Of a DNA stretch of 64,000 bases, positions 55,372 through 63,031 are shown piece after piece. Made by a program: the position numbers and the translations under genes. The notes beneath the pieces are model-generated. The model worked only from the letters and a program-made list of their open reading frames with translations. It had not been told where the DNA came from and ran no database searches. Origin of the DNA: Bacteroidales bacterium. GTDB lineage: Bacteria; Bacteroidota; Bacteroidia; Bacteroidales; GCA-2748055. Numbering within the stretch: the stretch's first letter is position 1; each line of letters begins with the position of its first letter. Where the stretch lies: contig JAGLOO010000024.1 of assembly GCA_023138875.1 (NCBI GenBank), positions 1 to 64,000 on the forward strand. The letters are read 5' to 3'.

Positions 55372-56027
55372 CAGCACAAAGAATCACCCGGTTCCTGATC
55401 ATCAGACTTTTTTTCTTCATCGTTTTCAGGTTCTTCCTCTTCATCATCAAGGAGTGTGCTTTCCGGCTCTGGCCCCTGGTCCCTGTACACCACGGCAAGC
55501 ATTATTCCGGAAATGGCTCCTGTCAGGTGTGCTTCAAAAGAGACTTCAAAATCAAATGGAAGCAGGCCCCAGACCATGCCTCCATACCAGAAGACCACCA
55601 GAAGAGAAATGGCCATCAGGCTCCTCACCCTCCGTATTACACCGCTGAGAAACAGGAAAGCGGCCAGGCCATAAATGAGACCTGATGCTCCTATATGGTA
55701 GGCCTGTCTTCCAATGCTCCACAGAAGGATGCCTCCGATGAGGTAAATCAGGCCCCAGATCTTATAGGCTATGTCGCGATAGAAATAGAAAAGGGCCAGG
55801 CTGAGCAGGACGACCGGCATGGAATTATCTACCAGGTGTTTCCAGTCACCGTGTATGAGCGGGGAGAACAGGATCCCCTTCAAACCGCTCAAACGCCTTG
55901 GATAAACACCTGCTTCCACAAAAGAGATCTCCATAGCCATCTCGAAGAATTTGATGGCCCACAGCAGGAAAAGGAAGAAGGCCGGAAATACCAGGCTGTA
56001 TATGAATCGCTTTTTCTCTTCCGACAT
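55368..56027 (-). CDS. Rhomboid family intramembrane serine protease
   Basis: 219 residues with six predicted membrane segments. Catalytic Ser in HIGASGLIYGLAAFL and catalytic His in FEAHLTGAISGIMLA. The LIHGDWKHLVDNSMPVVLLS segment corresponds to the HxxxHLxxN oxyanion region. A very acidic C-terminal tail follows (LLDDEEEEPENDEEKKSDD). It cleaves membrane proteins. A TACCTTTG box ends 4 bases before the ATG, so its transcript may be leaderless. Confidence 0.92.
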   Translation of the reverse strand: MSEEKKRFIYSLVFPAFFLFLLWAIKFFEMAMEISFVEAGVYPRRLSGLKGILFSPLIHGDWKHLVDNSMPVVLLSLALFYFYRDIAYKIWGLIYLIGGILLWSIGRQAYHIGASGLIYGLAAFLFLSGVIRRVRSLMAISLLVVFWYGGMVWGLLPFDFEVSFEAHLTGAISGIMLAVVYRDQGPEPESTLLDDEEEEPENDEEKKSDDQEPGDSLCC

Positions 56028-56031
56028 AAAG

Positions 56032-56039
56032 CAAAGGTA
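56032..56039 (-). promoter_or_regulatory. -7 box at the start of the rhomboid gene
   Basis: TACCTTTG on the minus strand fits TAnnTTTG and ends 4 bases before the ATG at 56027. No well-spaced -33 element is seen. Confidence 0.4.
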
Positions 56040-56079
56040 TCTTTTTCTGATTTGCTATCTTTATCCATTAAAACACGCG

Positions 56080-57333
56080 ATGATGACAGAGATCCTGCTT
56101 GGAGTATTGATCCTTGTGTCCCTTACAACTTTGTTCCTGATGCTTTTCAGAAGAAAGGATAAGGAACGGGATCATTTCTCCCAATCCATTGAAGCTTCCA
56201 TCAAACGGTTGGAAGTGGTGTTTGAGCAGCTGGGAAAGTCCCTGAAGGACGACTTTCAGCGGAGCAGAGAAGAGGGACAGAATAATTTTGCACAGAACAG
56301 GATGGAGCTGGCTAAAACCCTGGAGGTGTTCCAGGGCAGGCTTGAGAAAATGAGGGAGACCATCGAGATCAAATTAAAGGATATCCAGATGGATAACAAT
56401 AAGAAGCTGGAAGAGATGCGCATGACTGTGGATGAGAAGTTGCAGGAAACATTGAATAAGCGGATCAGTGATTCCTTTAAACTGGTTAGCGACCGATTGG
56501 AACAGGTTCATAAAGGCTTGGGGGAGATGCAGGAACTGGCCACCGGGGTGGGCGACCTGAAAAAAGTGCTCAGCAATGTAAAGACCAGGGGTATCATGGG
56601 TGAGGTACAGCTTGGAAATATCCTCAAGCAATTCCTTGCACAGGATCAATTCGTCGAAAATGCAATGATCAGGCCGGGTAGCACCGAAAGTGTAGAATTT
56701 GCTGTGAGACTGCCGGGAAAAGATGACAGGGAGGAGGAGGTGCTGTTGCCGGTGGATTCCAAATTCCCCATGGAGGATTACCAGCGGTTGATGGAAATAT
56801 ATGAAAAAATGGAAATGTATTCCAGGGAGGATATCCAGAAGGCTGAAAAACAGTTCGATACCATCGTCAGAAAATCCGCTCAGACCATCAGTAATAAATA
56901 CATTGTTCCGCCGCTCACCACCAATTTTGCGCTGATGTTTGTGCCCACTGAAGGACTGTACGCCCAGATTCTGAGCCGAACCGGATTGTTTGAGACACTG
57001 CAGCGGGATTTTAATGTAACCGTGGTTGGTCCCTCTAACCTGGTGGCATTCCTCAGCAGCCTGCAGATGGGTTTCAGGACCCTGGCCGTCCAGCAAAGGT
57101 CAAACGAGGTTTGGAAAATACTCGGAGCGGTGAAGAATGAATTCGGCAGGTTCGAGGAGGTTCTGAAAAAGGCACAGAACCAGCTTAACCTGGCGTCAAC
57201 CAACATTGATAACCTGGTGGGAACACGGACCCGTCAGATCCAGCGAAAACTGAAAAATATCCAGGAACTTCCAAACAGTTCCACACAGGACATCCTTGAC
57301 CTTGATGAAGGGGAGGAGGATGAGTCAATGTAA
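56080..57333 (+). CDS. rmuC: DNA recombination protein RmuC
   Basis: 417 residues from the ATG at 56080. The frame is open upstream to 55951 but antisense to rhomboid. An N-terminal membrane helix (MTEILLGVLILVSLTTLFLMLF) precedes a long coiled coil (about 35-150) and the RmuC nuclease-like domain (KTRGIMGEVQLGNILKQFL, LPVDSKFPMEDYQRL, MFVPTEGLYAQIL, VVGPSNLVAFLSSLQMGFRT). The family limits inversions between short repeats. Divergent from the rhomboid gene. Confidence 0.95.
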   Translation: MMTEILLGVLILVSLTTLFLMLFRRKDKERDHFSQSIEASIKRLEVVFEQLGKSLKDDFQRSREEGQNNFAQNRMELAKTLEVFQGRLEKMRETIEIKLKDIQMDNNKKLEEMRMTVDEKLQETLNKRISDSFKLVSDRLEQVHKGLGEMQELATGVGDLKKVLSNVKTRGIMGEVQLGNILKQFLAQDQFVENAMIRPGSTESVEFAVRLPGKDDREEEVLLPVDSKFPMEDYQRLMEIYEKMEMYSREDIQKAEKQFDTIVRKSAQTISNKYIVPPLTTNFALMFVPTEGLYAQILSRTGLFETLQRDFNVTVVGPSNLVAFLSSLQMGFRTLAVQQRSNEVWKILGAVKNEFGRFEEVLKKAQNQLNLASTNIDNLVGTRTRQIQRKLKNIQELPNSSTQDILDLDEGEEDESM

Positions 57334-57384: not shown

Positions 57385-57414
57385 TTTGGTGTGTTAATAT
57401 TATCTCTATATTTG
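57385..57414 (+). promoter_or_regulatory. Promoter of the ilv leader and operon
   Basis: TTTG at 57385-57388, 18 bp, then TATATTTG at 57407-57414, a match to the Bacteroidota promoter form with spacing one short of the usual 19-21. The start of transcription would be near 57419, giving a 14-base leader before the ATG of the leader peptide. Confidence 0.6.
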
Positions 57415-57432
57415 ACCCATGTTATAGAACAC

Positions 57433-57501
57433 ATGACAAAGAGTATTTTACATATCATTCTAGTGGTGGTGGTGCTGGTACTTATTCCAGGAGCAACCTG
57501 A
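57433..57501 (+). CDS. Branched-chain amino acid leader peptide of the ilv operon
   Basis: A 22-codon ORF starting ATG at 57433 and ending TGA at 57499-57501. From residue 5 it reads ILHIILVVVVLVLIPGAT, with 13 of the codons 5-18 being Ile, Leu or Val. Such Ile/Leu/Val runs are the hallmark of attenuation leader peptides such as those before ilv operons of enterobacteria. It lies between an ilv promoter-like sequence and a terminator that precedes ilvD by 28 bp. Scarcity of charged Ile, Leu or Val tRNA would stall the ribosome in this run. Confidence 0.85.
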   Translation: MTKSILHIILVVVVLVLIPGAT

Positions 57502-57543
57502 GAGTGGTATAAATCAGAATAAGAATTATACAAAGCCATTCTC
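57500..57543 (+). promoter_or_regulatory. ilv antiterminator hairpin
   Basis: GAGAGTGG (57500-57507), which overlaps the leader stop codon, is complementary over 8 pairs (one G-T) to CCATTCTC (57536-57543), the top half of the terminator 5' arm. Inside it TATAA and TTATA can extend the pairing. A ribosome at the stop codon would cover the first strand and free the terminator. A ribosome stalled on Ile/Leu/Val codons would leave it free to form the antiterminator. Confidence 0.75.
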
Positions 57544-57563
57544 AGAAAAGAGGATGGCTTTTT
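57532..57563 (+). terminator. ilv attenuator terminator
   Basis: A 12-bp stem (AAAGCCATTCTC with GAGGATGGCTTT, one G-T pair) with loop AGAAAA and a T5 tract, placed between the leader peptide and the ilvD ATG at 57592. It is mutually exclusive with the antiterminator described above. Confidence 0.88.
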
Positions 57564-57591
57564 CAGTATATAAAGGAAATATCTCACAGAG

Positions 57592-59418
57592 ATGAAGATT
57601 ACATACAGAAGTCATACCAGCACGATGGGCAGAAGAATGGCAGGAGCCAGGAGTCTGTGGCGTGCCAATGGAATGAAGGAATCACAATTTGGAAAACCAA
57701 TCATTGGTATTGCGAATTCGTTTACACAGTTTGTGCCCGGGCACGCACATCTTCATCACATCGGGCAGGATGTCAAGCAGATCTTTGAAGCCGCCGGCTA
57801 TTTTGCTGCAGAGTTCAATACCATTGCCATCGATGATGGGATTGCCATGGGTCATGATGGAATGCTCTATTCCTTACCCTCACGTGATCTGATTGCCGAT
57901 AGCATTGAGTATATGGCCAATGCTCATAAGGTGGATGCGCTTTTCTGTATATCCAACTGCGATAAGATCACTCCGGGTATGCTCATGGCAGCCATGCGAC
58001 TTAATATTCCTGTGATCTTTGTATCGGGTGGACCCATGGAAGCAGGCAGGGACGGAGATGAGGCCTATGACCTGATCGATTCCATGATCATGGCTGCCGA
58101 TCCCAGTGTGAGTGATGAAAAAGTAGCACACATTGAGAAATTAGCCTGCCCAACCTGTGGATCCTGCTCGGGTATGTTTACAGCCAACTCCATGAACTGT
58201 CTGAATGAGGCCATCGGACTTGCTCTGCCAGGCAATGGGACAATTGTTGCTACACATGTGGAACGTAAGAAGTTATTTGAGAAAGCCGCGTACCAGCTTA
58301 TTGAAAACACCCTCAGCTATTATCATGATGGTGACCAGTCGGTACTTCCGCGCAGTATTGCTTCATACGAAGCATTTGAAAATGCCATGACCCTGGACAT
58401 AGCCATGGGAGGTTCCACCAATACTGTCCTTCACCTGTTAGCTATTGCACATGAGGCAGAAGTTGAATTTACCATGAAAGACATGGACCGTCTCTCCAGG
58501 AGCACTCCTGTTTTATGTAAGGTTGCTCCCAGCTCTAAATACCATGTTGAGGATGTGAACAGGGCAGGAGGAATCATGGGCATATTGGCTGAACTTGACA
58601 GGGGTGGTTTGATGAACAGGGATGTATACCGGGTTGATCGGAAAACACTGGGCCAGGCCATCGAATGCTATGACCTGATCAATGCTGAACGATGTGACCA
58701 GATTGAGGATTTATATTCTGCCGCACCAGGAGGGATATTTAACCTTCAGATGGGTTCTCAGGAAAAAAGGTATGAGGAGTTTGACCTGGACCGGGTAGCG
58801 GGTTGTATCCGGAATATTGAAAATGCCTACAGTGTGGATGGTGGACTTGCGGTTGTCACTGGCAACATCGCCAGAAACGGTTGTATTGTAAAGACAGCTG
58901 GCGTTTCAGAGAATGTGCTGGTCTTTGAAGGTCCGGCAAAAATATATGATTCGCAGGATGATGCATGTGATGCCATCCTTCAGGGTGAAGTGATAGCGGG
59001 GGATGTGGTTGTCATTCGATTTGAAGGACCCAGGGGAGGTCCCGGTATGCAGGAGATGCTTTACCCAACCACCTATTTAAAATCCAGGAAGTTGGGAGAG
59101 AAGTGTGCTTTGATCACCGACGGTCGTTTCTCGGGAGGGACCTCAGGACTATCCATCGGACATATTTCCCCCGAAGCAGCAGACAGGGGTGAGATCGGTC
59201 TGATCAGGGATGGGGACATCATCAGGATCGATATACCGTCACGGACAATTGATGTTGTATTGGGGGAGTCTGAACTGGAGCGACGCAGGATCGAAGAGAA
59301 TCAAAAACCTTCGGGGTGGAACCCTGAACGTGAAAGGAATATTTCCGGGGCATTAAAGGCTTACGCAAGTATGGTATCCTCGGCGGACAGGGGAGCCATC
59401 AGACAAATCAAAGATTAA
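57592..59418 (+). CDS. ilvD: Dihydroxy-acid dehydratase
   Basis: 608 residues. Dehydrates 2,3-dihydroxy-isovalerate and -methylvalerate to the keto acids in valine and isoleucine synthesis. Iron-sulfur ligands are visible in [13 protein letters not shown] and [18 protein letters not shown]. Other IlvD/Edd signatures are [17 protein letters not shown] in part, [20 protein letters not shown], and [12 protein letters not shown]. First structural gene of the operon, 90 bp after the leader stop codon. ilvB follows 28 bp downstream. Confidence 0.97.
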
Positions 59419-62856: not shown

Positions 62857-62888
62857 GTTGTCAGATACGCTTTTTCTTCTTAAATTTG
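62857..62888 (+). promoter_or_regulatory. Promoter of the SRP RNA gene
   Basis: TTG at 62858-62860, 20 bp, then TAAATTTG at 62881-62888 is a very good match to the Bacteroidota promoter form. Predicted start is about 62892-62893, exactly where the SRP RNA terminal helix begins. Confidence 0.68.
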
Positions 62889-62892
62889 TAAC

Positions 62893-62993
62893 TTGGGCAA
62901 GTCTTATACGACTAGCTCCTGCTGAATTCCCCCAGGACCGGAAGGTAGCAAGGGTAAGCGGTTGTAGCGGTGCGATATAAGTAGCTTGCCCAT
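62893..62993 (+). ncRNA. ffs: Signal recognition particle RNA (small bacterial type, 4.5S-like)
   Basis: About 100 nt between ilvC and the DUF4199 gene. The conserved SRP domain IV loop region is present as CAGGACCGGAAGGTAGCA at about 62933-62950, with GGAA tetraloop and symmetric/asymmetric loops. The ends pair as GGGCAAG (62895-62901) with CTTGCCC (62985-62991), closing the hairpin. It forms the scaffold for Ffh in co-translational membrane targeting. No Alu domain. A promoter is positioned precisely upstream. A T-rich stretch after 62992 may end transcription. Confidence 0.93.
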
Positions 62994-63031
62994 TTTACTA
63001 TTAATTAAACACCACCAAATAGATTAACATC

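Follow-up and report, generated by a model that had tools for sequence, protein, structure and literature searches.

The question raised by this locus is whether an ilvDBNC operon in a Bacteroidales genome is controlled through translation of a short leader ORF. In Escherichia coli, the ilvGMEDA and trp operons are subject to ribosome-mediated transcription attenuation by leader peptides. A first-pass annotation of a 64,000-nt stretch of a Bacteroidales genome (hereafter the window) proposed a leader-peptide attenuator upstream of ilvDBNC and described this type of control as little studied in Bacteroidota. The description is fair, but the field is not empty. One report gives strong clues for leader-peptide attenuation 5' of amino acid operons in Flavobacterium psychrophilum (PMC9723704), and another mentions Bacteroides thetaiotaomicron sORFs reminiscent of leader peptides (PMC7366714). 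In this study, we examined the anatomy of the ilvD leader, its conservation, its alternative hairpins, and the effect of ribosome position on them.

The features of the locus are listed in Table 1. The four ilv genes, called with NCBIfam models, are separated by gaps of 28, 13, and 12 bp. Just 3' of ilvC, a Bacteroidales small SRP RNA gene (RF04183, 108.7 bits) occupies 62888-62995 on the plus strand. The candidate promoter, TTTG-N18-TATATTTG, is presumably of the Bacteroidota type. Thirteen of the 22 leader residues are Ile, Leu, or Val, and all of them fall at residues 5-18 (codons at 57445-57486), as a recount confirmed. On base-by-base rechecking, the coordinates given in the first-pass annotation for the promoter, the 22-codon ORF, the antiterminator strand, the terminator, and the ilvD start were all exact. 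The sequence GAGAGTGG at 57500-57507 overlaps the TGA stop codon of the leader (57499-57501), and CCATTCTC (57536-57543), within segment 3, doubles as the antiterminator partner of segment 2. Between the leader ORF and ilvD sits a predicted intrinsic terminator with 12 consecutive pairs, one of them G-U, and a 6-nt loop; its T-run is short, with five T only (57559-57563), three of which are paired within the stem. The folding of region 57415-57600 had a z-score of -3.41 relative to 200 dinucleotide shuffles. The window fold also had a 5-bp hairpin at the start codon of the leader, which was dropped because by eye it did not seem to be kept in relatives. The element had been titled a translational attenuator; that word is wrong, and the anatomy is that of translation-dependent transcription attenuation.

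Table 1. Coordinates of the leader elements and the ilvDBNC genes in the window.
Feature	Start	End	Strand	Basis
Candidate promoter: TTTG (57385-57388), 18-bp spacer, TATATTTG (57407-57414)	57385	57414	+	read from sequence
Predicted leader peptide ORF, 22 codons, MTKSILHIILVVVVLVLIPGAT and stop	57433	57501	+	sequence and conservation
Segment 1, AUAUCAUUCU, codons 7-10; potential protector partner of 57501-57510	57452	57461	+	fold and codon controls
Segment 2; forms the protector with segment 1 or the antiterminator with segment 3	57500	57510	+	fold, alignment
Segment 3, terminator 5' arm	57532	57543	+	fold, alignment
Segment 4, terminator 3' arm (57550-57561), plus T-run (57559-57563)	57550	57563	+	fold, alignment
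ilvD, dihydroxy-acid dehydratase, first gene of the operon, ATG at 57592	57592	59418	+	NF009103 / TIGR00110 above cut-off
ilvB, acetolactate synthase large subunit	59447	61180	+	TIGR00118 above cut-off
ilvN, acetolactate synthase small subunit	61194	61754	+	TIGR00119 above cut-off
ilvC, ketol-acid reductoisomerase	61767	62819	+	TIGR00465 above cut-off

Conservation of the leader ORF was assessed in 164 regions upstream of ilvD. An ORF was accepted if it had an ATG start, 12-45 codons, and at least 9 Ile/Leu/Val in 14 residues. Two loci were left out before the count, L014 (ilvD N-terminus missing) and L051 (124 nt upstream). From one scan with 596 candidates, the best 80 served as the named loci, a non-random set that was split into Bacteroidota and other bacteria by record titles. 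The class and phylum loci were a hand-chosen part of the match lists. L056 and L113 are one locus, which was counted in both the same-order and the named Bacteroidota groups, shuffle counts included; both entries are in the 75-locus protector set and neither is in the 70-locus antiterminator set described below.

An accepted ORF was present upstream of ilvD in the window (1/1), in 16/16 loci of the same genus, 10/10 of the same family, and 17/20 of the same order, counts that are inflated by related sequences, as is every conservation and pairing count in this study. Among the named loci (the best 80 of 596 candidates), it was present in 31/44 Bacteroidota and 0/35 other bacteria. The same-class (4/20) and same-phylum (3/18) samples mostly carried another IlvD, with best segments of about 30-39% and 35-55% identity, respectively. 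Three same-order loci and 13 of the named Bacteroidota loci (the latter from the best 80 of 596) had no accepted ORF. By chance, the rule was satisfied in 55/3280 dinucleotide shuffles of all groups (about 1.7%), in 31/1820 for the window, genus, family, order, and named Bacteroidota together, in 11/400 for the class, and in 5/164 reverse strands. A GTG-started leader ORF was seen by eye at L043. The motif TAnnTTTG occurred within 70 nt 5' of the leader ATG in 16/16 genus, 10/10 family, and 12/17 order leaders, and in 25/31 leaders of the named Bacteroidota (from the best 80 of 596 candidates). Leader nucleotides vary, yet the Ile/Leu/Val run persists; its retention in relatives at the genus, family, and order levels is what the first-pass annotation had named as support for the attenuator.

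Some more distant loci differ in detail. At L140, of the same class, the leader MYPLVILLSFIILIGFTK has TGAGGCACT at its stop, and the terminator carries AGTGCCTCA, a like architecture in different letters. By eye, L088 and L119 have Ile/Val-rich leaders 5' of ilvD with a possibly different switch geometry; their downstream strand GGAATCC seems to have its match, GGATTC, around the terminator loop and not in the 5' arm.

For the pairing analysis, segment 2 was taken from the stretch at the leader stop, and the terminator was chosen without reference to segment 2. A strict T-run version of the terminator rule missed several relatives, and the rule was therefore relaxed; the T-run is interrupted in six relatives (L015, L017, L019, L020, L124, and L125). 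Segment 2 paired with the terminator 5' arm over at least 7 bp in 51/70 loci vs 12.9% of shuffles. The antiterminator score was 18.0 with the locus's own terminator arm vs 13.1 with arms from other loci. The remaining 19/70 loci had pairings below 7 bp, and 5/75 had no terminator by the rule used.

Base changes were followed in an alignment of 40 rows, obtained from the 48/70 leaders with a TGAG stop after removal of six near-duplicates and of L052 and L114; its stop columns are invariant by this selection. All 360 cells of the terminator helix (3:4) were paired, and 25 of them had two-sided changes. Of the 320 cells of the antiterminator helix (2:3), 98.1% were paired; its two-sided-change cells numbered 13 and lay at a single column pair (118/167). 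For both helices, the percentage paired, the two-sided cells, and the covariation score were reached by 0/500 shuffles, which take no account of sequence kinship. Two further measures, the count of pairs changed on both sides and the count of pair types, were not above shuffles (472/500, 290/500; 500/500, 149/500). Slid helices had far lower pairing than 3:4 and 2:3. A single base in segment 3 has a partner in segment 2 and another in segment 4. Its 2:3 pair is U-A in the 21 window, genus, and family rows and A-U in 12/19 others, with segment 4 following. RNAalifold on 21 genus and family sequences returned the 3:4 stem only, with a method that cannot display mutually exclusive helices. Compensatory changes in both hairpins, which the first-pass annotation had named as a sign of the switch, are thus found, those in the antiterminator at a single column pair.

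To evaluate the effect of ribosome position, we assumed a footprint reaching from 18 nt 5' to 12 nt 3' of the first A-site base and masked this stretch. With the window RNA extended to 57545, the probability of the 2:3 helix (P23) stayed at 0.98-0.99 with the A site anywhere in codons 1-19, dropped to 0.31 at codon 20, and was 0.00 at codon 21 and beyond, the stop included. Under this assumed footprint, a ribosome at any of the 13 control codons (5-18) leaves segment 2 exposed, and one at the stop codon masks it. In 40/40 aligned loci, mean P23 over the Ile/Leu/Val codons was above 0.5 and P23 at the stop was below 0.1, in a test that ignored codons in the last 14 nt before the stop and in which the stop effect is partly built in via the masking of segment 2. 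At least one Ile/Leu/Val codon gave a P23 of 0.25 or less in 9/40 loci. In the full-length window RNA, the terminator was preferred in every ribosome state tried. Because the complete RNA always favors the terminator, antitermination must be kinetic and decided before segment 4 is transcribed. The choice in known attenuators is likewise made before segment 4 transcription.

It had been claimed that the leader works without a separate protector stem, and this part of the first-pass annotation was not supported. In the minimum-energy fold of the window RNA, 57452-57461 pairs with 57501-57510 over 10 bp, so that all four segments of a classical attenuator are present in the leader. The probability of this 1:2 stem (P12) was 0.95-0.96 in the absence of a ribosome when the RNA ended at 57511-57530. 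Across 75 loci, pairing of segment 2 into the ORF was 0.73, vs 0.57 in synonymous and 0.56 in codon-permuted controls; 61/75 and 66/75 loci, respectively, were above the control means (Wilcoxon about 1e-9, which ignores kinship). Within the same family, the value was 0.97. We infer that the protector may be of relevance in the living cell.

These data have to be set against the simpler, two-hairpin version of the same attenuation proposed in the first-pass annotation, in which the 1:2 stem is idle, only the antiterminator and the terminator compete, and an untranslated leader is read through. In its favor, the 1:2 stem of the window RNA declines without a ribosome as segment 3 emerges, and at 57545 the equilibrium values are 0.00 for P12 and 0.99 for P23. 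With segment 3 present and no ribosome, 2:3 is the stronger helix in 22/40 loci including the window (for example, P23 is 1.00 in L002, L007, L024, and L028). Since 2:3 is the stronger helix without a ribosome in these loci, an untranslated leader may be read through. The 10-bp stem that dominates before segment 3 appears argues against an idle segment 1, as does the excess of ORF pairing over the codon controls; moreover, ORF pairing prevails over 2:3 in the other 18/40 loci (0.86-0.97 vs 0.00-0.07 in L016-L020). We regard the version with an idle 1:2 stem as unlikely, although it is by far the most serious competitor to a four-segment attenuator. Two explanations that dispense with leader translation are much less probable. 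The hairpin could be a mere terminator of the upstream gene, with the short ORF incidental. That gene (ORF 55951-57333) is presumably RmuC-like, had no match among NCBIfam models, and lies on the leader's strand, with its end 99 bp 5' of the leader ATG. The leader, segment 2, and the terminator nevertheless recur with ilvD across the order, the promoter motif mostly precedes the leader, and segment 2 tracks the terminator arm, which leaves this explanation with a negligible probability.

Only marginally better placed, and still very improbable, is a riboswitch or T-box that senses an amino acid or uncharged tRNA directly while the ORF goes untranslated. The terminator/antiterminator layout is common to riboswitches. 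In addition, PMC8632094 proposes a weak riboswitch candidate in Veillonella, WRC-18-2, which resembles the window element as a structured leader 5' of ilvD, with a terminator in some motif members; it differs in being, according to that text, exclusive to Veillonella. Against direct sensing, no Rfam family reached its gathering score on the window leader, on the Bacteroides and Phocaeicola loci L039 and L072, or on L172 (see below). Sub-threshold matches in the leader were scattered and far below gathering, with Phe_leader at 13.8 bits vs the 55 needed. By eye, little is conserved outside the ORF, the segments, and the terminator, and the maintenance of the Ile/Leu/Val run despite varying leader nucleotides also argues for a translated ORF. 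Because no Rfam family reaches the gathering score, such leaders in Bacteroides and Phocaeicola species are probably unannotated.

Taken with the conservation of the ORF and the linked pairing changes, which support the leader-peptide attenuator first proposed for ilvDBNC in this Bacteroidota genome, these comparisons make it very probable that the operon is controlled by a classical four-segment, ribosome-mediated transcription attenuator answering to Ile/Leu/Val supply. In the four-segment model, RNA polymerase would start just 3' of 57414, and a ribosome would trail on the 22-codon leader. Before segment 3 emerges, segment 1 would hold a free segment 2, and a stalled ribosome would cover segment 1. 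When charged Ile-, Leu-, and Val-tRNA are ample, the ribosome would reach the UGA stop and cover segment 2, and the 3:4 terminator (57532-57561) would then end transcription ahead of ilvD. When a branched-chain amino acid is scarce, the ribosome would stall within codons 5-18 and leave segment 2 free; the 2:3 helix would take segment 3 before segment 4 exists, and the operon would be transcribed.

Additional copies of the element were sought with a covariance model built from the 21 window, genus, and family leaders. The model recovered the ilvD copy in 27/28 family genomes. A second, weaker match was found in the window's genome at C40:25819-25944 on the minus strand (L172 / L183; E 1.9e-5). 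It lies 5' of gltB, with the leader MKSHSNTVNRHMTIGIIWSG followed by a stop, and in ten relatives the second-match scaffold precedes the same gene. The gltB call was based on the first 596 residues, which matched NF008730 (glutamate synthase large subunit) at positions 3-589 of 1490 with 627 bits, below a cut-off of 1047 that is set for the whole protein. Leaders were read in 21/31 gltB upstream regions by a script keyed to a stop-side motif, a choice that in part explains why their TGA, TAG, or TAA stops line up. In frame, the share of Lys/Arg/His/Asn in the 21 leaders was 0.42 vs 0.27 in shuffles (21/21 above), and that of Glu/Gln was 0.022 vs 0.099 (0/21 above); Arg alone exceeded shuffles in only 12/21. 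Pairwise differences among 13 gltB leaders numbered 567 at third codon positions vs 439 at first and 404 at second positions, a moderate excess only. Applied to L198, L199, L202, and L203, the same rule did not recover the terminator or the pairing of segments 2 and 3, and by eye the eight more distant gltB loci L205-L212 had no leader of this type. A C-terminal Ser-Gly before the stop (TCCGG) is frequent in gltB leaders (for example, L188, L190, L192, L197, L198, L202, and L203). By eye, the TCCGG of L197 looks able to lengthen the antiterminator via CCGGA beside segment 3; no CCGGA-like partner was seen beside segment 3 in the window's genus.

A seed-pattern search located the scaffold in another family of the order at G055:C4:20233-20283 (L221 / L243), 5' of a gene that we take from its sequence to be leuA. 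The leader there, MTKVNSLYILSILLCILLWVRD, is Leu-rich. Ile/Leu-rich leaders were found in 6/30 leuA loci, the six being picked by eye and two of the 30 having less than 50 nt upstream. The Val share was 0.11 in these six eye-picked leaders vs 0.37 in ilvD leaders. Besides L221 / L243, an Ile/Leu-rich leader with a terminator 5' of leuA was noted at L245, L261, L265, L268, and L271, in other families of the order. The leuA of the window's own genome (L253) has no such leader. At the seed-pattern matches L242 (G000:C45) and L224 no leader was seen, and both look like chance; a reversed-pattern control matched in 6/12 genomes.

These copies allow the tentative suggestion, which we hold as possible rather than probable, that one scaffold, whose segment 2 resembles UGAGAAUGG and sits in the stop codon and whose terminator is of the CCNUUCUC type, is re-used in Bacteroidales with swapped leader peptides. 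The peptide would be Ile/Leu/Val-rich at ilvD and Leu/Ile-rich at leuA; at gltB it would be basic, rich in Lys/Arg/His/Asn, and almost without Glu/Gln, and would read nitrogen status. The gltB version might do so through how well tRNAs for nitrogen-rich amino acids are charged or through nascent-peptide slowing. The likeness of the copies may also reflect convergence on the same short motif. Our literature search found no paper on a nitrogen leader-peptide signal of the gltB type. For glutamate synthase genes, riboswitch candidates have been described, namely the gltD motif (PMC8632094). The gltB copy may represent a new sensing mode.

Compared by design with E. coli ilvGMEDA and trp, the window leader has the same short ORF with codons for the product amino acids, the same set of protector, antiterminator, and terminator, and a terminator just 5' of the first gene. 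It differs in its phylum, its candidate Bacteroidota-type promoter, its start-proximal ATG, and a segment 2 that starts in the stop codon. To judge by its title, a 2010 comparative genomics study by Lopatovskaya, Seliverstov, and Lyubetsky deals with how bacterial amino acid and aminoacyl-tRNA operons are attenuated, and it may already include the ilvD element. In our full-text literature search, which covered few subscription papers, no paper was recognized as describing the Bacteroidales ilvD element. Corynebacterium glutamicum ilvBNC is reported to be preceded by a three-hairpin attenuator (PMC11857589). Compared by that description, the two systems share attenuated branched-chain genes and three alternative hairpins, and they differ in phylum and in the first gene. 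The F. psychrophilum elements belong to the same phylum as the window, and some of the new structured 5' elements in that species are without Rfam matches; pheA and hisG are named among those with conservation in other genera, and the term 'ilv' is absent from the main text (PMC9723704).

The window leader is very probably an attenuator, well conserved and ordinary in kind, and its proposed mechanism is textbook. Bacteroidota are said to make little use of Shine-Dalgarno sequences, and leader-peptide attenuation seems little documented in the phylum. The ilvD leader adds a concrete and widely conserved case of predicted coupled transcription-translation control in Bacteroidota. It also provides a ready test of whether the ribosome and RNA polymerase run close enough for attenuation in these bacteria.
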